DNA of 64,000 bases from Utricularia gibba (Eukaryota > Streptophyta > Magnoliopsida > Lamiales > Lentibulariaceae). The notes below the pieces were generated by a model, which had not been told where the DNA came from, did not search any database, and saw only the letters and a program-made list of their open reading frames with translations. How positions within the stretch are numbered: the stretch's first letter is position 1; each line of letters begins with the position of its first letter. Where the stretch lies: NCBI GenBank assembly GCA_002189035.1, contig NEEC01000004.1:5394001-5458000 (forward strand), written 5' to 3'. A program made the position numbers and the translations under genes. Shown in pieces: positions 1 through 16,503 of this stretch.

Positions 1-3000
1 GGTAAGAACAATTGGGATAACCGTGGTCGTGGTAGGGGACGTTGGTCCTATCGAGGGAGAGGTTCAGGGCGTTGGAATTCATCTAATGACGTGAAGGAGA
101 ATGCCTCCTTTCATCAGAACAGAGGACGTGGGAATTGGCGCGGAAGAGGTGGTCATGGCAAGCAAAATGGGGGCATTGATTCTAAGAAAAATAAGGCTAA
201 TGTAGAATGTTATACATGTCATAAGAAGGGCCATTACTCTTGGGAGTGTCATAATGCGGAAGAGCAGAATAATTTGCTTGTCGAACATACAGAGGAGACT
301 ACTGAATCACCTATTTTATTGATGGCTAAAAACGTGTCCAACGATGATATTGCAAGTTGGTACCTAGATTCTGGAGCCAGTAATCATATGACTGGGCACA
401 AGAGTTTGTTTTATACCCTTGAAGAAACGTATCGTGGCCTAGTTCATCTTGGAGATTCTACAAAGATCACTGTGAAGGGAAAAGGCGATGTTCTTTTTTC
501 TCTAACGGATGGCAGTCATAAATTAATTTCAGATGTTTGGTATGTTCCTGGTTTACGGTATAATATCTTGAGTCTTGGCCAGTTGTTGGAAAAAGGCTTT
601 ACAATGCTCTTAGAAAATCGACAGTTGCTGTTGATGGACATCAATAAGAAAGTCTTAGCATCCGTAAAGATGAAAGAAAACAGAATGTTTTCATTAGAGT
701 GTAACTCTGTTTTCCCAACATGTCTGAAAATATGTTATAGGCAAGAAGCTTGGACATGGCACCTACGGTTTGGACATATTAATTTCCAAAATTTGAGGAA
801 ACTTGGAAGCAACAAGATGGTCAAAGGTTTGCCTGTGATTTCACATCCAAACCAGATATGTGAAGGGTGTGTTCTTGGCAAACAAACTCGGACTGAAATT
901 CCAAAGGTGACATGGTCGCGTGCTACAAAACCTTTAGAGTTAATCCATGGAGACGTATGTGGACCGATCAAACCTCCCACGATCGGTCACAACAATTATT
1001 TTCTCCTGTTTGTTGATGATTTCAGCAGGAAAATGTGGATTTATTTCATGAAGAATAAATCGGAAGTCTATGGACTCTTCAAGGAATTTTTGACGATGGT
1101 TGAAAAACAGAGCGGCTTATCAGTCAAGTGCTTAAGAACAGATCGAGGAGGTGAATTTACTCCTAACAGTTTCATTGATTTTTGCAAGTCACTTGGGATA
1201 CACAAGTCTCTGACCGCAGCTAAGACACCACAACAAAACGGTGTTGTTGAGAGGAGGAATCGCGTCATTCTTGATATGGTGAGATGCCTTCTGAAAACCA
1301 AACAGATGCCCAAGGAGTTTTGGGGTGATGCTGCTGCCACATCAGTTTATATTTTGAATCGAACCCCATCCCGAAGTGTAGTGGGAATGACGCCGCAAGA
1401 AGCATGGAATGGAATTAAACCATCAGTTTCTCATATGAGAATTTTCGGATCCATTGCCTATGTACACCAACCGGATGATGAACGCACGAAACTGGACGAC
1501 AAAGCTCAAAAAATGGTGTTTATTGGCTATGATCAGACCTCAAAGACTTATCGCTTATTTGATCCTAAACTGAAAAAGGTTCGCTTGAGTAGGGATGTCA
1601 CTTTTGATGAATCTTCAAGCTGGGACTGGAAGTCTCTTTCAGACAATGATCCTTCATATAAGTCTTTTGATTTTAATTGGGAAATAGAAGGACGAGAGCC
1701 ATTGATGGATGATGCTGAAGCCATTAATCATCCTATCTCTCATGAAGAAGAAACAGAGTCTCCTGTGGATACGAGAGTTGAAAATCCATCAGTGGTGAAT
1801 AGAGGTCATAGATCAAGGAGACTTCCAAGCCGTTTTACTGATTTTGCCGTTGATCTACCGCCCTCGTTGTTACCCGAGACGAGCCATGATCTGTTACGTG
1901 AGGTTCAGAACTTTTCTCATTTCTGTCTTTTTGTTGAGACAGAGCCTCTGGACTTCTTTGAAGCTGAAAAATCCCCTGATTGGCGTACTGCAATGGATGA
2001 GGAAATCCATGCGATAGAGAAGAATCAAACTTGGAGTCTGGTGGAGAGGCCTTCTGATAAGACCGTCATAGGTGTAAAATGGGTCTATAAAGTGAAGCGG
2101 AAGGCAGATGGAAGTGTGGATCGATTGAAAGCAAGGTTGGTTGCCAAAGGGTACAAACAGAAAGCTGGGATTGATTATGATCAAGTATTTGCTCCAGTGG
2201 TGAGGATGGAGACAGTGAGGATTCTTCTTGCATTAGCAGCTCAACTTAAATGGTTTATTTGGCAGTTGGATGTTAAATCGGCTTTCTTGAATGGGATATT
2301 GGATGAAGAAGTGTTTGTGGAACAACCATTAGGATATATCAAGAAGGGAAATGAAGACAAAGTTTTGAAGTTACACAAATCCCTCTACGGGTTGAAACAA
2401 GCACCACGTGCTTGGAATCAGCGCATTGATGCATATCTCAAAGGCATGGAATTTATTCAATGTCCACATGAGCACTCCTTGTACATCCGACAGAAGAAGC
2501 TCACAGAAATGATGATCGTGTGTATCTATGTTGATGATTTATTAGTCACTGGAGGGAGTGAGTCTGAGATTGCAAAATTCAAGAAGAATATGAATGAAGA
2601 ATTCGAGATGACCGATGCTGGAAAAATGCATTTCTATTTGGGTATTGAAGTGAAGCAATCAGCCCAAGGAATTTTCATCACTCAAAAACGTATGGTGCAG
2701 AATTTGTTGGCAAAGTATCATATGGGTGACTGCAACTCGGTTGAGACCCCTTCAGAATTTAATCTGAAGTTGAGTTCCAATGATCCTTCGAAGGAAGTGG
2801 ATGTTACAGCCTTCAAAAGTTTAGTCGGCTCCTTACGGTATATAACCAGCACAAGGCCAGATATTTTATTTGCTGTAGGGTTAGTCTGCAGGTTTATGGA
2901 GAAACCCAGAGAGACCCATCTCAGAGCAGCCAAGCGGATCCTTCGATATCTGAAAGGAACATCAAATTTCGGGATATGGTATGGGGTTTCTGAACCTTTT

Positions 3001-3477
3001 GATCTTGTGGGTTTTAGTGACAGTGATTGGGCTGGAAATGTTGATGATTCCCGAAGTACAACTGGGTTTGCATTTTTTCTGGGTGAATCTGCAATTGTGT
3101 GGAATTCTAAGAAGCAACCCATCGTTACCTTGTCAACATGCGAGGCTGAGTACGTTGCTGCCAGTGCTTGTGTTTGTCACGCAATTTGGCTGAGGTATGT
3201 TCTTCAGAACCTCGGTTTGAAAGGTGAGAAGCCAACGGTGGTGCATATTGATAATAAATCCGCGATTGCTCTTGGTAAAAATCCTGTTTTCCATGCTCGT
3301 AGTAAGCATATTGGGACTCGGTTTCATTTCATTCGTGATTGTGTGAAAGATGGACAGATTGAATTGTGTTATGTTAAGAGTGATGATCAAATAGCAGATA
3401 TCTTCACTAAGCCTTTGAAGATTGGGGCTTTTCTGCGTTTGAGGAATCTGCTTGGAGTCAAGAAGCTTCTTGTTTAA
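1..3477 (+). mobile_element. Ty1/copia retrotransposon Gag-Pol polyprotein, 5' partial
   Basis: One frame stays open from the first base to the stop at 3477, so the start lies left of the window. It encodes, in order, an RG-rich Gag tail (about 1-210), a CCHC zinc knuckle (C-x2-C-x4-H-x4-C, about 217-258), the aspartic protease motif DSGASNHM (about 367-390), a GAG-pre-integrase segment (about 740-870), the integrase core (about 910-1500), reverse transcriptase with YVDDLL (about 2527-2545), and RNase H with the copia ending IADIFTKPLK. The order integrase before reverse transcriptase makes it copia rather than gypsy. No stop or frameshift interrupts the visible part, so the insertion is probably young. 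A purine tract and the 3' LTR follow directly. Lineage within copia not assigned. Confidence 0.95.
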
Positions 3478-3484
3478 GGGAGGA
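3475..3484 (+). other. polypurine tract of the copia element
   Basis: A purine-rich run (AAGGGAGGA) overlaps the polyprotein stop codon and directly precedes the LTR. This is the expected primer site for plus-strand DNA synthesis. Confidence 0.7.
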
Positions 3485-3742
3485 TGTTGAAGATACACAA
3501 GAAGACTTCTGCCGACTGATTGTTGGAAGTTAGTATGGTTATAGAATAATAGGTTGTTGTAACTGCTTGTAGCAGTTTTATGTTTTAGATAAGGATGATG
3601 AATTACTATTTAATGTAGACAACTCTAAGGTGGTTTAATAGAAAATACATTTTCTGGAGCAAGTGTTGTTTTCGTTGCTCTTACTCTGGTTTTGAAGTAT
3701 CTTGTTGTGTTCTTCTCTTCTGTTTTTACTCCTCATCCAACA
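3485..3742 (+). repeat. 3' LTR of the copia element
   Basis: The segment starts TGTTG and ends CAACA, a 5-bp inverted terminal pair with the canonical TG...CA, right after the polypurine tract. Length is 258 bp, within the short range usual for copia LTRs. The matching 5' LTR and target-site duplication lie outside the window, so the outer boundary is inferred from the terminal motif only. Confidence 0.75.
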
Positions 3743-5707
3743 GACATCTCATGGTGCCTAATCCACAAATATAAAGTATGTTCCGTACACATTATCAAAA
3801 TGAGAATAAAATTTAAAGCCTTCTAAAAAATTTCAAAAAAGGTTCCAAAAGGAAAAAAAAAAAAAATGTCTTGTTGTAATATTAGAAATTCAGTTGTAAC
3901 AGTACATAAATAATATTTTTACTCCTTGTATAAAAAAGAGAATTTGAGAATTATTCTGTATTTACTCTTTTTTGGACGATTCTTCTTCGTTTGTGAACAT
4001 CATCACCTTGAATTATTGCGTTCGGATTCGTCCCCGGCCCCTGGACACAATAACTTTCAGCATTGTGTTGGTCGCGAAAGAAAAGCAGGGTTATTTTGCA
4101 TCTTCATCCAGTGACGACCAACGATTTTCTTTCTTTTCCCGGCGAGAAACCATGTGGCAAAGCAGTATCATGATGGCTTGAATTGGTGTTAGTTGTTGCT
4201 TCTGAAACTGGGTTTTACTTGCCCCTATGATCCTCGGAAGCTTCCACTAGTGTGATCAAGAGGCTTGACATTGAGGGGCGATGAGGAGATGGGCATGAAC
4301 ACAGACGTATAATGAGATAGCAGTAGAAGGAACGTGGCTCGTCGTTAGCTGCAGTTATCAGATTGCGTTGCCTCTCGCAGTCCTCCACTGCATCGCGTTG
4401 TTAATGTCATTTATTACCACAGAATGAGTACCTCATGCACGTTAGCAATCTTAATTAACAACAGCGTTACGTAGAGTGGGCTACGTCATGTCGTTTTTAC
4501 GCTCGACCCTAAATAATGTGTTGTAATAATCCACAACCATATCATGGTAGTTTAATGCTCACAGATTCTGCTTCAAGCTATGACTAAACACCCTAGGGAA
4601 TCAACCAATCTCTAGCGCAGTTCTTCAACTTTCTCACACGCAGTTACCCGCTTGCCCACAGACTGCACATTTGGCACCAAGGATTCTGATTTCTGAACAG
4701 AAGAGATGTCATTCGGAACCCAATGACATCCCTCCTGCTCATCGGATCCTGAGCTTGAACACAAGATCTGTAGCGGGAGTGGCTAGGACATGAACAACCG
4801 CGGTGGTTGGGCGTAGGGCTGTAATAATCTGCGTGATCTCGGAGATGGGAAGAAGAAGACAAGGGTGAAGTTGCAAGGAATGCTAGGCGGTGGTGAGTGT
4901 AGGGTGATGGCCACTTGGAGGGAGACGCCTGGTCCCTGAATTTATTCACTGCGCACACCTTTTCAAACACGTCTGCATCCTTTCCCACCCCACCCAACCT
5001 AACCTCCAGCTACTTGCCCGATACACTGCAGCAGGATGCGCATTCTGGAATCGAAGGAGCTCCAAAATTACCCATTCATCGCGTCATCAATGGGATTCCA
5101 GGAAGAGATTTTAGGAACTCGGTTTTGTTCAGATACAGTAGGGTTGGTGAAGATGCTGGCTTTATGTCCCATCGTCGTCAGCAGTACATGACATCAGCAA
5201 CTTATTTTCCTTTTATTTATTTTTTTTAATTTCTGTATATTTTTAAATTAGGAGCCCTAAACCACCACAGGGATTTTTCTCAGATGCACGTGCCGAGGCC
5301 CAAATTGTATTGGGCTCTTTCGGCTTTGCATTGGGCTTAATTCACATTATACATAACTGCTCATGCCTAAAAGTGGATTTTGCACGGGAGGCCCGCCCAT
5401 TAATTCACCCTTCTTTTTATAGCATGTAAATCGAGGCAAATCCAGAATTCTAGTAATTATGGGCCGTTCAAAGAAAAAACTGAAAGTAGTGGGATCGCAT
5501 TGTAATTATTGGAAGATGGTGTCCCCAGGTTTGAATAGTGAACAAATCCTTCGTGTATGCTCAGATGAACAATCCCAAGAAACTGCAGATTGAATGAATG
5601 GCGCAGTGAAGGTAGAACGTAACTCCTACAAACCTCTGGCATTCCTTCATTGAATTCCAAATCTCTTCGCCTGCTGTGACTAAGTGTGAAACTGCTCTTC
5701 CCCTGTC
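3743..5707. other. intergenic region, no gene seen
   Basis: Only short, unrecognisable reading frames occur here. The right end is the upstream region of the EC1 gene. A low-complexity A-run sits near 3850. Confidence 0.5.
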
Positions 5708-5715
5708 TATATAAG
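5708..5715 (+). promoter_or_regulatory. TATA box of the EC1 gene
   Basis: TATATAAG lies 47 bp upstream of the EC1 ATG, implying a very short 5' leader of about 20 nt. Confidence 0.6.
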
Positions 5716-5761
5716 CAGCTTATCATCTAGTGGATCATGTAAAAAGCAAGCCTTGGAAACC

Positions 5762-6154
5762 ATGGATTCCACGTCCAAGCTACTTCCAGTTCTTATTGTT
5801 CTCTGCCTGTTTGCATCATCCAACACCGCAACGGGCAGGAGGCTCGATATGAAGCCACTGTCTTCGTTGTCGTCTCTGGCAGTCCGACTGAAGTTGGAGG
5901 AAGTGGAGGGATCATCTAATTGTTGGGACTCTCTGCTGCAACTCCAGTCCTGCACTGCTGAAGTCCTGCTGTTTTTCCTCAATGGTGAGACATATCTAGG
6001 GCCGGGTTGCTGCCGGGCAATCAAAGTGATCGAGCACGAGTGCTGGCCGTCCATGCTTGGTTCCCTTGGCTACACATCGGAGGAAGGAGATGTCCTACTT
6101 GGCTACTGTGATGCTAGCTCTGCTGTGCCGCCGCCACCGCCTAAGACTCACTGA
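5762..6154 (+). CDS. EC1: egg cell-secreted protein 1-like (EC1, prolamin-like/DUF1278)
   Basis: Intronless gene for a 130-residue protein. Residues 1 to about 22 form a signal peptide (Leu/Val-rich core, then SSNTATG). The mature part carries the six-cysteine EC1 pattern: NCWDSL, SCTAE, GPGCCRAI, ECWPSM and GYCD, followed by a Pro-rich tail ending PPPPPKTH. In Arabidopsis EC1 proteins are stored in egg-cell vesicles and released on sperm arrival to activate sperm fusion competence; that role is inferred from the family. The ATG at 5762 was chosen because the frame upstream has only a TTG and the TATA box is placed correctly for it. The gene is convergent with the kinesin, with 163 bp between stop codons. 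Confidence 0.9.
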   Translation: MDSTSKLLPVLIVLCLFASSNTATGRRLDMKPLSSLSSLAVRLKLEEVEGSSNCWDSLLQLQSCTAEVLLFFLNGETYLGPGCCRAIKVIEHECWPSMLGSLGYTSEEGDVLLGYCDASSAVPPPPPKTH

Positions 6155-6317: not shown

Positions 6318-9300
6318 TCACAGAACAGACATCAGGCTGCTTTTAAAACTACATATTCCCATGCGAGACTTGGGAGCAAGCTTGAGGTTGAAAATATCTT
6401 CAGAAGGAAGGTGGCCCGGTTCAATAAATCCGAGCAGCTTTGCAACAAGATATGCACTTCTTGTAGCATGATCGATGCTATCGGTTTTGCTCCATACCTG
6501 GTGAGCCAACTTTAGCCTTCTCACTTTGGTGTTGAGATCAATTCCCCACTCCAGAAAGAGGGACTCACGCTCTTGCTCTGAAAACTTCTTCGACATCTGA
6601 TGACTCAGCATTCGCCTCTCTTGACGTAGTGCACTGGCGCTGTTCTTCGTGGAAAATATATCAAATTACTGAGAGAAGGAGAAGCAAGTCTGATGACTAA
6701 CTTGCCTGGAAGAACGTGTTAGGCACCTTAGATTTGCTTTAGCTGTCACCCCACGAGGGGATTTATCTTCCAAGAACTTGATTCTCCTGATTTCCAGCTC
6801 CATGTATATGGCATCGGCAGGATCCCTCGGAAAAGCAAGAAAAAGTACGTTCTGTGTGCGAGTGATATATTGTAAACATGCCAAAGCTGAATTATTTCTC
6901 TCTGGAGTCTTTTGAACTCAATTGGCCAACTGGTAAGTCCTCTTAGCTCATCTTTGTTCGCAGATGCTTCCGTGACATTCAATGCTGTATGCTCACCCTC
7001 CTTCGATGAACCATCTTCTACCTGCACAAAAGATTCCAAGTAAGAGAAATGATACAAAAAGACAAGCAGGTTCTCTAGTTTCCTGTGTTGTGGTCATGAG
7101 CATTTAAAACCTTTGCATTTGGGGTGTTGATTTCACTGTCAAGTGTAATTTCTGGAAGCATTTGAAGGTACTTTCTTGATAAAATTTCCTCACAAGGAGC
7201 TTCTTCAGATACATGTATTTCAATTTGACCAATCTCAGTTTCTTTCTCAAATCTCTTGTATTCGCTCATTTTTAGAGGAGAAGCTGTTTCTCTGCTGATA
7301 CTTTCTGTGCAGCTTTTGCATCTGGTTAGCTTCAAGAATACACCATCCATCTTAAGCCGATGCCTTGAAGGCTGAATTTCCAGAGATGCAATATCAAGGT
7401 ATTGAATGGAGCTGTACTTTTTCCCATTCGGTGTACTGGTGCTCGATGAAGTTACACTTCCCTTCACTTCATCATCGTCCTTTAAGTCCGATTTCATCGA
7501 AGCAGAGTCTTTCATCGGAGGACTAAATTCAGGAAGGCTGTTGGTAACATGTGCTTCAGCATGAAATCTCGGAACTGAATATGAGAAACTAGATCCTGGG
7601 CGCCTTCATGGCTGATATAATGGAGCTCCCTGCACTCATCCATGGCGATGTGGTTGCTTTGCAGCTCAATCTCGTCACCAACAGGACCTGCACACTCATA
7701 GTCACTAGAATGTGGGCTGCTTATTAAAGCCCTTGGACCCGCAGTGATGCCTGAATGCCCCTCACTGTATAAAACTTTAGCAAAATGATCCTTGAGCTGC
7801 TCCTACAAAGCATAAAAGCCTCTAGATCCTGGATTTCGGAATCTGGAGATGCCTGCACTCTGATTTGTGGGTAGTCTCTGGGTTCCATCTGAAGAGATGA
7901 ATCCGCAAATTGATCAACAGAGGAGAATGGCTGGTACATGAATAGGATACGTATGAATGAATAATTACATACTTGCATTGCGGCTCTTGCATCTCCTTCC
8001 AGCATGTCCAGACATTCTTTGACTTGAGATTGCGCAATGTCTCTTTGCAGAATCAGAGCTTTGATCTCCTTCTCAAGCTGCATGGAATAAAATAAACGTC
8101 AAATAAACACTCTGATTGAAGAACACCCCACCACCTTCACTCAAAAAAAACTTGATTTCAAGAAACATTATGATCAGTTACCCTGTCGATTTGAGTGTCT
8201 TTCTTCTTGATTATAATGGCATTGCTCGACTGGCTGTTCCTTAGCTCACTTTCTAGCCTTGCAACCTCCTTCTTCAAACGCCTCACTACTGCCTTATCTT
8301 TGACAGTGACATTGACTTGCACGTTCGCTGACATTTTCATGGTGCATTGTGCAAAGAGAAGTGTGTCATGAGCTTCCTCGATGCAACTACGAGCAGGGCT
8401 CATTGTGCAGATGAGAGCTGTCCGAGCATTTTCTCTATGAGATATATGCAGAAACCCCATTAACACAGAATCTCTGGAAGGGAAGTGACTACAGTATTCC
8501 TTGCTGCAAGGAGATGTACATATAACCATTAACGACAAAAGCCACACAAATGCATTGTTTGTAAGGGAGGATACTACACTAGTTACCTCAGCATAGGTGT
8601 GTCTCCTTCTGAATGCGGCAAACCATGGTTCATTTGGGAGCAATCATCCACTGTCGTGTGCTCAATAGCAGCCAGATCAACGAAGTCCTGGGATGAGACT
8701 AAGTATTATAAGTATCAAAATCAGTAGCTCCTTAACTGTCATCCTACAATTGCTGTTACAAAGAAAGCATACCAAAGAAGCAGCAAGTGTACAGATGTTA
8801 TTTCCCTTGCCCCGGAGCACCTTTTCCGAGCTTTCAACTGTCTGCAAGATAAAGTGAATGAAATATGTATGTGCTGCAGCTGCAAGAAAATGATGTTGCG
8901 GGAGGTGGAGACAAGTACCAGTCTGATTATATGTTGGGACAGAGGGCTCGTTTCATTAACCAATGCTTCCCCATTCCATTTTTCCTCTAGAAAATCCGAG
9001 CAGCAATTGAAAACAGGGTTCTGTTGAAATTCTTCACTGCAACAGAGTTCGAAAAGACTTACCTAGAAAGCTTGAGACCAGCTGAGTTGCATGATCTCTC
9101 TCCCTCAGTGTTTCTTCTTTAAAAATCTCCACCATTTTTCCTTTCTGTATATTTGTTTTTCGTAGAGGTTATCAGTTGATGACAAAATCATCCTATCCAA
9201 CACGAATGAAAGAAGTAAAAATACCGCTGGATCCAATGCAGAGTCACATGATACCCCCAAGGCAGACAACTTCAGGACAAAGTCTCTTTCTGGATGCTGA

Positions 9301-10017
9301 AACATTAAGCATCATCAGAATACGCCAAATCAGTTCATGAACTGTATCATCATTCATTGAGACTCACCTTTTCTAGATAGTCATAAATATCAGCGATAGT
9401 ATACACAATAATCCCCTTCAAAGTGTAAGTCTTTCCGCTTCGTGGTTTCCCGTAGACGAAAATGTTTGCTGAAGAGGGTAAGAAGTAAGTCAGGATTTAG
9501 TGCAGCAACAGAGACAAAACAAGTGCCCTTACAGTTCACCCCATTGACGACTGAAAGGACAACATCCTTAACTCCTTGCTCGTAAACATCAAGTGTTGAG
9601 CAATCATCCCTAAACACCCTATCTGAGAAGAAGACGTCAGAATCAGTATCTTAAAATAGCACACCCTTATCGAAAGCAATTCCCTCTTCTAGTTTTTTAT
9701 CCATTCGTTTCATATGGGATCTTATGTTTCGGCACACACATCTGGAGACCCAAAGAGGTAAGCATCACAGTAGTATTGAAGAATCAAGCAATCGGTAAGA
9801 GAATTCCCTCACCAAATGTGTATGAAGTGGGATACATCGACTTCTCAGATGCAAGAAAACTGAAATTCTTGCAGAGTATAGTATTCTGATTGATGCATTC
9901 CCAATCCGAAACATCGTTGTTCGTAATTTCTTCATCGTTTAAGGGCCTTATCCTGACTGACACAAAAGCCTTTTCCTTGTTCCCTATCATCATCGCCCCT
10001 TCACTCTCCATGATCAT
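6318..10017 (-). CDS. kinesin-7 (NACK/HINKEL-like), eroded motor, frame breaks in tail
   Basis: Multi-exon gene. Motor exons that join in frame with GT–AG sites: 10017-9813, 9622-9533, 9468-9368, 9296-9225, 9144-9063, 8986-8919, 8841-8773, 8687-8587, 8503-8182, 8077-7973, then from 7888. They encode the start FVSVRIRPLND, P-loop GKPRSGKT, and the neck-side block NARTALICTMSPARS. The tail (about 7060-6318) is the NACK_C/DUF3490 domain with SWPIEF, HRTYFFLLF and FLEWGIDLNTK, which in NACK kinesins accompanies phragmoplast function. Oddities: switch I reads NETSPLSQH instead of NxxSSRSH, switch II DLAAIE instead of DLAGSE, and the alpha4 segment is absent. The tail frame breaks near 6824 (FLLFRG to DPADAIYM), near 7600 and possibly near 7800. 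Start at 10017 is the first ATG after an in-frame stop. Confidence 0.8.
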
Positions 10018-11924: not shown

Positions 11925-13507
11925 TTAGAAGATCTGGCAAAGCAATCGAGGAGTGGGGATTGCGACGAGCCTCTGTGCTCTAGGGGCCGTCAGCCCAAAC
12001 ATGTCATTCATGTCCAGTTCACTTGGCTTCATACCCTCCGGCAACTCCCATGTGAAACAGTGAAGAAGATGCGCCACAGCCATTTCCAACGCATGGAGTC
12101 CAAGCTGCATCCCGGGGCAGGACCGCCGACCCGACCCGAACGGAATGAACTCGAAGTTACTGCCCTTGAAATCCGGGGCCGCCTCGCTGAAGAACCGCGA
12201 CGGTTTGAATTCGTTCGGATACTGCCATGCAGTTGGATCGCGCCCGATTGCCCAGGCGTTGATCATGACCCGAGCATTCTTCGGGATATGGTATCCCGAG
12301 ACCGTCGCCGGGGCGGCGGTTTCGTGGAGGAGGAGAGGAATTGGGGGGTGCAGACGGAGAACCTCCTTCAAAGCGCAGCGGAGATAGGAGAGCTTCTCGA
12401 GATCAGCCTCCTCCACTTTGCGCTCTAACCCCACAACGGCTTCTAGCTCTTGCTGAACTTTGCTCAAATCCTCTGGACTTCTTATTAGCTCTGCCATTGC
12501 CCATTCTATAGCAGAAGCAACAGTTTCAGTTCCCCCAAACATCACATCCTGAAAAAATGCCCAAGTTAATAATTATAATACGGATTAGGATTTTGGATCA
12601 TTTATTTCACATTTACCATGATAATTGCCTTGATGTTATCCCTCGTCAGCTTCAGTGATTCATCTTGCTCTGAAACCTTTGATTGGTCACCGTGAAAGGC
12701 GAGCAACTCATCCACCATGTCGGTTTCGATTTGGTTCTTGTTGGCCGTCTTCTCCTTCTCCAGATGTTCATCGATAATTCGATCGATGAACCCGTCGAGA
12801 GACTCGCGAGCTGCGACGAGTCTCCGGTTGAGACCTTGAGGATCAATCCACCCGGGAAGCGGGAAAAAATCAGCGAGATTGAAGGCACCGAAGAGCTTGG
12901 AAAACTCCTGCATAATTTTGATGAATTCATCTTGGCCCACGTCAGAAACGGACCCGAAAGCAGCCCGGTAGGTGATATTCATCGTCAACTTGAAAACCAG
13001 TTCGCCGACGTTGACGGCAGCGCCGGAGCTAAGAGCCACCGCACGAATCATGGCGTCGACCTCATCCTTGACGGAATCCCACGACTCCGCCCTCTTCCGA
13101 CTGAACAATTTAATCACGCAAATCTTACGCATCTGGCGCCAAAAGGGTCCGTAGTGAGCGAACGCCATATCAGCTCTATCGTAAGTCAAGTAGCGTATGG
13201 CGATATTCGCAGGCCGGTTGGAGAATATGTTGTCGTGGATCTGGAGGACCTGCCTGGCGGCGTCGGGGCTGGAGATGGTGACCATGTGGAGGAACCCGAT
13301 GCGGAGGTGGAACACGCCGCCGTATTTCTCGGCAAGCTTCGCAAGTCCCCGGTGCGTCAGCTGGTTCATCATGCCCATGTTTCCGATAACCGGCCATCCC
13401 CGCGGCCCCGGCGGGTAACGCTTGCGATGAAGTAGTATTCGAAGCACAAGGATTGTGAGAATGGCGAAGACGAAGGCGAGTATCAGAGATATTTCTTTCT
13501 CCTCCAT
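11925..13507 (-). CDS. CYP84A: cytochrome P450 CYP84A, ferulate/coniferaldehyde 5-hydroxylase (F5H)
   Basis: Two exons, 13507-12617 and 12548-11925, joined between AIIM and DVMFGG, give 504 residues. Features in order: N-terminal ER anchor (about residues 8-26), Pro hinge YPPGPRGWPVIGN, I-helix GGTETVAS, ExxR in KEVLRLHPP, PERF-like FKPSRF, and heme loop FGSGRRSCPG with the Cys ligand. The sequence matches the CYP84A type, which hydroxylates coniferaldehyde or coniferyl alcohol at C5 on the ER surface and directs lignin toward syringyl units. Syringyl lignin formation is typical of angiosperms. The ATG at 13507 is used; the frame upstream holds only a TTG. A CA microsatellite lies just upstream at about 13574-13590. 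Substrate is inferred from family. Confidence 0.9.
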
Positions 13508-16503
13508 CTCCTCCTCCTGCACCACCACCAAACGTGGGCTATCTATCCATCCTCCCTAATGACGTGCTTCAGATATATACACACACACACAGTGAGAACG
13601 GGGGACGCCACCCCCCGGATGTCAACATTTCCAATTTTTTAATTCAATTTTGTCGTATTTAATAAAATATAATACGCACTCAATCCGTCCTTTTCCAAGT
13701 ATAAAGACCAAGGCAGAGAAGTCCCAACCCGACCCGTATACCCCTTTTCTTGGATAACCCGTTCTGACGTGGATGGACCCGCTCCCATCCACTCACCGTC
13801 ATTTCTTTGTAAGAGTTAGGTAATCATCTCCGGACAGAAAAATTCAATATCAATGACACGTGTCTCGTCACGCCTCCATCTAAAAATACATTATTTATTT
13901 TACGGAAAAGGGGGTCCCGATCTCACCCACCCCCCGCCCCCTTAAATGTAGGGTTTGCAAGAATGAATGGTCGACACCACGTTTCGTCAGCGATAATAGT
14001 TTCCAATTTGAACTACAAATATTAATTACATTACACACAATGAATTCCCAAGTTTGAAAATGGTTTAATTTTAGGGTTTTCGGACATAAATAGAATAAAA
14101 AAAAAGTTAAAAGGGAGTGTTTTATTTTTAAAATTCCTCCACATAAAAAAAGGCCCTTTTCTAGTTCTTTGCACCATAAATGATTCAGGACAGGAAAGGG
14201 TCGCCTCAGATCCATAATATTAAACCTCAAGTGGCTGGCGGTACCCTCCATCTTATATTTATAAATAATACCTAAATTAAAAATATTATGATTCAAGGTA
14301 CAATTTACTAGTAAAAAAACACTTCATACAATATAATATTTACCTGATCATTCATTATATTTAATATCTTGGCACAATCCTAGAAACTCAAGGGTAATGA
14401 TTAGACACACACCAAACGTGATTTAGGTACAAGCATGTGGTTATGGAACTATATGTTATAACTTTTAGATGGTGGATAATTAAGATCACCTTCTAGTCAG
14501 AAGTGTCATTACCCACAATTGTTTTGAATGATATTGTCCATTTCGAACATCCAACCTTCACGGTTTTACATTTTCTTTTTTTAGAGAAAAGATTTCATGC
14601 AAGATTAGTATAATCCCTCTAATTAATCACATTTACTACTCCATCTATAACCAATGTTGTATGATTAACCATCACTAGTAGCTTGGCCTTACAATAAGTG
14701 ACTGCGGATCCGAAAGGGTTGAGTCAAACGTCGAATGGGCGGCACGCGTAATTCAATTTGTGTGTAAGAGAAGAGGGTGGCGGTTCCCACGGTCCGCCGG
14801 ACAAGGCCGGGTCCTTGTCTGAAACGTGACTTTCCGATGTGTTGTACTCTTTTTTCAAACATTGATCCAGTTTTCAGTGAACAAGCTTCCTTTTTAAAAT
14901 GCCTAAAAAACCCAATTGTTGCTTTCTTATCTGTTGAATAGATTGCCCATGCTTTTGTGAGATGAAACTTGAAGGAAAGGAGTACTAAATTTAACTCTAC
15001 TTTTAGAAACGTGTATTTAATTATATTCTGATTTTTTAGAATCATTCTAATTTTATTTTAAATTAGAAAGAGTAAATGTTAGGTGAGAATTGATGTTGAC
15101 TACAAACTTACAAATATGTGGCCAAATTTTTTATAAATAATTACAGTTGTTATATTTTAAAATAAATATTAATTTTTATTTTAAAAGAAGAAATTCAAAT
15201 AAAGTGTTAAAATTTTTTATAGTAAATGATTCTTGTCTGATAATAAAATTGATTTTTAAATATTTGTTAAAAAACCTTGTATTTGGGACGGGAGCCCACC
15301 CCAACATGACTTCTCGTCCAACAACACCAACCAGGTTTGGTAATTAAAATTCACAATTTCCAGAGAAAAAAAACACACATGTCGTGAGGGGGGACAAGAG
15401 ACCCTAAGTGCCCCATGTGCATCCTCGGGGGGCTGCCTTTTTGCCAAATATTATAAAGTTTTATTTACAAATCTGATTTTGTTTATCTAAAATTTCTAGG
15501 ATTTAAGGATGTCCTCAAGAAGACTGAATTTTGTAAGTTCACACCCAAAGCGGTGCCCCGTCACCACCAACACCAACGTCTCATTGGTGGGCCCGCAGGC
15601 CCCATTCACTTGGTTGACAAAAATGCAAATTTTTTTTCCTTTTTTTAATGATTGCTTAATTTCGACGACATTCCCGCGGGGGCTGACGTAATAAACAATT
15701 AAAAAAAAGATAAATAGGTTGTGAATGGGCCTAGCCCAATTCATTCGCATAGCAGGCATGGGCTTGCACTGCTTTTACCAATTCGAGGCCCAGTGGCCCG
15801 CAAGCGTTTCAGAAATTGATTAATGAATGAGAAATTAGGGGATGCGGGTCCCACACCTCAATCAGAAATTGATAATGGTAGGATTAAATACACAATGTGC
15901 ATGCAATGCCCCTAATGTAATTCCTTCCTACATTATGAGTTTAATTAATACCTGCCCGCTAGACATCTAATTTTAATTAATGGTGCTGCCCATGAAATTA
16001 AATATCCATTAAATACCACAAAATCGCAGCAGCGGGCAGGGGGTACGTAGCCTGGCGCCTCAAACTCACACAGGGGACAAGGGCACAATTTTGTAGGATT
16101 TATTAATTAAATAAACTAGAAAAAATAAAATGAACCTTTTTTTAAAAAGGGAATGAGTTGTGAGGCCGTGAATAAATTTGGAGAAACTATTAATTAATTT
16201 AGTGGTATTCCCAGGAGCTAGCAGCTAGCTACAGTATAATTTATTAATTAATTAATTAATTATTCAGCCTATTTTTTGAATATATAAATTATCCACGTAG
16301 CTACTGATTTTGATGAGAAATGGATGTTTTTCGAAATGAGAAAAGAAAAGTAAAAAGGAAATAGTCAACAAAGCGAACGCCAAGATTCTAAGCAAAATGA
16401 GTACTGTCTTCCGAATCAGTTACACCACTGCCAACAATTTACACCGGAACTGCGTTCCGCCGCCGTACCGGATTAACCACTCTCTTCGTTCCGGTTTCAT
16501 TGT
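13508..16503. other. intergenic region between CYP84A and GATA genes
   Basis: AT-rich sequence with short simple repeats, including an ATTA/TTAA run at about 16241-16264. No reading frame resembles a known protein. The left edge is the CYP84A promoter. Confidence 0.5.

Follow-up and report, generated by a model that had tools for sequence, protein, structure and literature searches.

Kinesins without working motors are already known in yeast and animals. Vik1 and Cik1 are non-catalytic partners of the kinesin-14 Kar3 (PMC4338441), and KIF26A, a kinesin without motor activity, has a signalling role (PMC10585591). Among kinesin-7 proteins, NACK1 acts through a MAPKKK and activates the NPK1/ANP MAPK cascade (PMC6421500), and the over-produced tail of Arabidopsis KIN7.3 titrates separase (PMC10538751). 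A plant pseudokinesin, in the kinesin-7/NACK_C group or elsewhere, was not found in searches of open-access papers. Could a plant kinesin, too, have given up its motor and kept its tail? We analysed a 13-exon kinesin-7/NACK_C gene of Utricularia gibba, located on the minus strand at positions 6318-10017 of a 64,000-nucleotide stretch of contig NEEC01000004.1 (hereafter the window). In its best reading, to which we assign a probability of about 0.62 on the evidence of the sequence, the gene is protein-coding and specifies a motor-inactive kinesin-7 (a pseudokinesin) that would act via its neck coil and NACK_C domain. The product is probably a working, non-walking regulator or scaffold, and the gene not a simple pseudogene.

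Gene model and the state of the motor

A genome-wide scan (100 Mb, 516 contigs) for NACK_C (PF11995) returned eight loci, together with a second contig of the window locus. The window haplotype is carried by contig C413 and the second haplotype by C376; the seven paralogues are named by contig as C142 (locus L050), C375 (L051), C304, C451, C98, C1 and C213. A Pfam kinesin scan of the genome matched exons of all seven paralogues but not the motor of the window gene, whose motor exons were placed with a purpose-written spliced protein-to-DNA aligner. In the model below, invariants are the 169 motor positions identical in all seven paralogues.

9813-10017, minus strand: exon 1, with the ATG, the beta1 RIRPL motif and MYPTSYTF; 12 of 14 invariants kept
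9533-9622, minus strand: exon 2; 9 of 10 invariants kept
9368-9468, minus strand: exon 3, with the P-loop GKPRSGKT (GQTSSGKT in the paralogues); 11 of 17 invariants kept
9225-9296, minus strand: exon 4, EIYNExVRDLL block lost, 42 nt below the C142 length; 7 of 23 invariants kept
9063-9144, minus strand: exon 5, 82 nt, length conserved; 4 of 6 invariants kept
8919-8986, minus strand: exon 6, with switch I NETSPLSQHIIRL, 68 nt, length conserved, changed by substitutions only; 7 of 15 invariants kept
8773-8841, minus strand: exon 7; 4 of 6 invariants kept
8587-8687, minus strand: exon 8, with switch II DLAAIE, L11/alpha4 (RLKEGCHINRSL) lost, 24 nt shorter; 9 of 31 invariants kept
8182-8503, minus strand: exon 9, with L12/alpha5/alpha6, the neck and the start of the coil; 28 of 47 invariants kept
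7973-8077, minus strand: exon 10, coil LEKEIKALILQRDIAQSQVKECLDMLEG, resembling LEAEVKELTLQRDIAQSKVRDMLQALKD of C142
7111-7888, minus strand: exon 11, encoding the stalk; compared with C376 it has single-base gaps near 7597 and 7789
6706-7021, minus strand: exon 12, encoding the first portion of NACK_C (PF11995); compared with C376 it has a single-base gap near 6823; followed by a GC-AG intron
6318-6639, minus strand: exon 13, encoding the second portion of NACK_C, with the stop codon

The motor exons form one open frame, as the original prediction had held, but number nine for motor and neck, with ten exons in 7973-10017, and not eleven. Exons 1-9 measure 163 (from residue EKAF), 90, 101, 72, 82, 68, 69, 101 and 268 nt (aligned part), compared with 163, 90, 101, 114, 82, 68, 51, 125 and 268 nt in C142, and the differences are multiples of three throughout. 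The eight introns of the motor have the same positions and phases (1,1,0,0,1,0,0,2) in the window gene and its seven paralogues, which together with the PF11995 domain places the gene in the plant kinesin-7 NACK_C subclade. Its motor splice pairs are all GT-AG, and frameshift-tolerant splicing of the motor gave the same model with no shift required. GC-AG introns occur at the end of exon 5 in C142 and C375, where the window gene has GT-AG; its own lies directly before the last exon.

The spliced protein scores 119.4 bits against the kinesin motor profile PF00225 (cut-off 29.3), where C142 reaches 324 bits, and 195.9 bits against NACK_C (cut-off 25). Its best solved relative is CENP-E (1t5c, E 5e-20). 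NCBIfam gave no match, and Rfam none within the window.

What has the head lost? The P-loop GKPRSGKT conforms to GxxxxGK[ST] and is kept, as predicted. The switches of an active motor are gone, and here too the predicted motifs were confirmed, on both haplotypes: switch I reads NETSPLSQH without SSRSH (NExSSRSHQ in the paralogues), and switch II reads DLAAIE without the GS of DLAGSE. On the microtubule-binding side (L11/alpha4/L12) the LKEGxxINRSL motif is absent, as predicted; alpha4 as a whole is not missing, for exon 8 is present, eight codons shorter and mostly substituted. A block is likewise lost after SAL, its size being 14 codons of the EIYN..DLL region of exon 4 (72 nt versus 114 in C142) and not the 24 or so residues first estimated. 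The gene still has RxRP and the P-loop, as well as the neck and the coil (LEKEIKALILQRDIAQSQV versus LEAEVKELTLQRDIAQSKV). Overall, 91 of the 169 motor invariants are kept, 67 are substituted and 11 are missing, whereas each paralogue, when left out in turn, loses 3-8; a loss of 78 lies far beyond chance. In the NACK_C tail 35 of 41 invariants remain, comparable to C213 (41 of 47). Alternative exons with normal motifs are ruled out: a search of the whole locus turned up no remaining exon with a normal switch I, switch II or alpha4, and the identical search detects them in C142.

Two haplotypes and the constraint on head and tail

C376 matches the window from 3743 to about 19503. Over 9.5 kb a single substitution and four one-base gaps separate the two haplotypes, every gap in a G/C run, and their motor DNA is identical. 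On C376 the gene is a single open frame of 877 codons, with no stop, frameshift or splice loss. On C413 the tail frame is broken by three one-base gaps near 6823, 7597 and 7789 (exons 11 and 12), all absent from C376, so that the intact frame originally claimed holds for the motor and for the whole of C376, but not for the tail in the window. Since the gaps outnumber substitutions and all fall in short homopolymers, they are most likely sequencing errors on C413; if real, they would create one null allele. Homopolymer error had already been dismissed as the source of the motor changes; these are substitutions and codon-multiple deletions found on both haplotypes. In each of C375, C98 and C1 a conserved motor exon stays in frame only with a one-base shift, which points to single-base errors remaining in the assembly. 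Such shifts sit in exon 8 of L051 and exon 9 of L052 and L053, highly conserved exons of otherwise intact paralogues; they are probably leftover assembly errors, liable to mislead gene prediction.

An LTR retroelement of 4.65 kb occupies window positions 1-3742 and extends upstream to C413:5393091. Its two 258-bp LTRs are identical, it is flanked by a GACAT target duplication and has a near-identical copy on C414; its insertion on the window haplotype is very young. C376 carries the empty site of this element and therefore looks like another allele, not a repeated assembly path.

Selection was estimated with a codon model in which neutral branch lengths were shared and the window branch was compared with the background. 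Synonymous sites are saturated, so the omega values, whole-branch averages with the seven paralogues as comparison, are rough. Window-branch and background omega were 0.133 and 0.106 in exons 1-3, 0.313 and 0.077 in exons 4-8, 0.235 and 0.052 in exon 9, and 0.173 and 0.168 in NACK_C. Omega = 1 was rejected in all four partitions (2dL 17-37), and only exons 4-8 and exon 9 departed from background (2dL about 20). Exons 4-8 and exon 9 are thus relaxed 4-5-fold, yet with omega below 1, while exons 1-3 and NACK_C evolve at the family rate. The comparison of motor and tail that the original prediction had called for accordingly confines the relaxation to those exons and finds omega near 1 nowhere. 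Separate fits gave a motor omega of 0.205 against a background of 0.081, and a tail omega of 0.211 against 0.137, the tail difference not being significant; in the tail-only fit omega = 1 was rejected just marginally (2dL 3.84). On a fixed tree, the branch of the window gene measures 0.90 for the motor, versus 0.18-0.20 in sister genes, and 0.57 for the NACK_C tail, versus 0.52.

Do these figures describe a gene in decay? A duplicate becoming a pseudogene, its motor relaxed first and its tail to follow, ranks second among the readings and seems to us rather unlikely. Motor constraint is clearly relaxed, three gaps interrupt the tail on one haplotype, and redundancy with the seven other NACK_C kinesins is conceivable. 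Neutrality, however, predicts many stops, frameshifts and splice losses where the 877 codons of C376 have none: in simulations of neutral drift to 49-53% identity the motor alone acquired about 8 stop codons, the probability of none being about 0.0025, or at most about 0.003. The frame therefore most likely stayed open while the losses arose, with the first third of the head preserved in its own right. Early decay, one of the original suggestions, fits poorly with a motor that has fallen to 49% identity with its nearest paralogue yet carries no such lesion. NACK_C and exons 1-3 keep the family rate, and the tail gaps, all in G/C runs and more numerous than substitutions, are typical of long-read error, as the -1 shifts in conserved motor exons of C375, C98 and C1 also illustrate. 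Neither mark of a pseudogene, a disabled frame or an omega near 1, was thus found on C376; the three gaps belong to C413.

That the head is an altered motor still working with a degenerate set of switches is very improbable. The P-loop and N-terminal third are kept and omega is below 1 throughout the head, but the serines, arginine and histidine of switch I, the glycine and serine of switch II, EIYN..DLL and alpha4 are all lost together. An artefact, with the sequence wrong or the true transcript using other exons, is largely refuted, for although one-base errors exist in the assembly, the motor is the same on two haplotype contigs, a normal exon is nowhere in the locus, and the changes are of the wrong kind, namely substitutions and codon-multiple deletions.

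Relatives and neighbours

The window gene groups with C142/C375 with an ultrafast bootstrap support of 39 for the motor, 72 for the tail and 75 for both combined, a moderate grouping; with these two genes it shares an exon 1 that is nine nucleotides longer and the MYPT motif. C304/C451 we provisionally take to be the NACK1-like pair, since they score best against a guide sequence for NACK1/HINKEL. Because its nearest genes are C142/C375 and not this pair, the window gene does not come out as a NACK1/HINKEL orthologue, and the role of partner or decoy in the NACK-MAPK pathway, as originally stated, is unsupported and serves as a lead only.

A recent whole-genome-duplicate origin beside C142 or C375 found no support, as neither the P450 gene nor the prolamin-like gene next to the kinesin has a copy at those loci. 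The prolamin-like (PF05617) secreted protein, presumably of the egg-cell EC1 type, lies at 5690-6154 on the plus strand, tail-to-tail with the kinesin. Its paralogue on C98 is likewise found near a NACK_C kinesin, at a distance of about 90 kb, which may reflect ancient synteny. The cytochrome P450, which we assume to be CYP84/F5H-like, lies at 11925-13555 on the minus strand and has a paralogue on C496 with 75% identity.

Predicted mode of action and comparison with known systems

In a kinesin, losing both switches and the alpha4 face would be expected to abolish hydrolysis and the usual microtubule binding. The head of the window kinesin, lacking these elements, may retain weak nucleotide binding but would have lost the ATPase cycle and the usual grip on microtubules. 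The protein is predicted to dimerise through its coil, and its NACK_C tail would bind its usual partners, the outcome being a scaffold, a competitor or a regulatory partner of the intact paralogues. We infer that it acts through the tail. A dead-looking motor joined to a conserved NACK_C was the core of the original prediction, and it has been strengthened by the codon model, the second haplotype and the search for hidden exons. A natural member of the family with a dead head and an intact tail would suggest that NACK_C has a job separate from motility, and would offer a ready-made separation-of-function protein for finding the NACK_C partner.

How does this putative pseudokinesin compare with proteins already described? 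Like C142 and C375, it has the family's intron positions and phases, the longer exon 1, MYPT, the coil and NACK_C; unlike them, which keep all motor motifs, it is without switches I/II and alpha4. With NACK1/HINKEL it shares the kinesin-7 class and NACK_C, but these are not its nearest paralogues, its own motor is inactive by sequence, and the MAPKKK link is one described for NACK1. KIF26A belongs to an animal family with another tail and lineage. The KIN7.3 tail, a kinesin-7 tail minus a working motor, is a precedent for motor-less tail action, although as an artificial construct; to our knowledge KIN7.3 has no NACK_C and belongs to another subclade. Vik1 and Cik1 resemble the window kinesin in having a kinesin-fold head without ATPase and a dimerising stalk, but they go with kinesin-14 and their heads bind microtubules, whereas the window gene has lost the usual microtubule face. 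By analogy it could, quite tentatively, be a plant counterpart of Vik1/Cik1, a non-catalytic kinesin-7 subunit forming pairs with one of the intact KIN-7 paralogues or keeping its NACK_C partner away from microtubules; if so, nature would have supplied a dominant regulator of cell division or of polarity.
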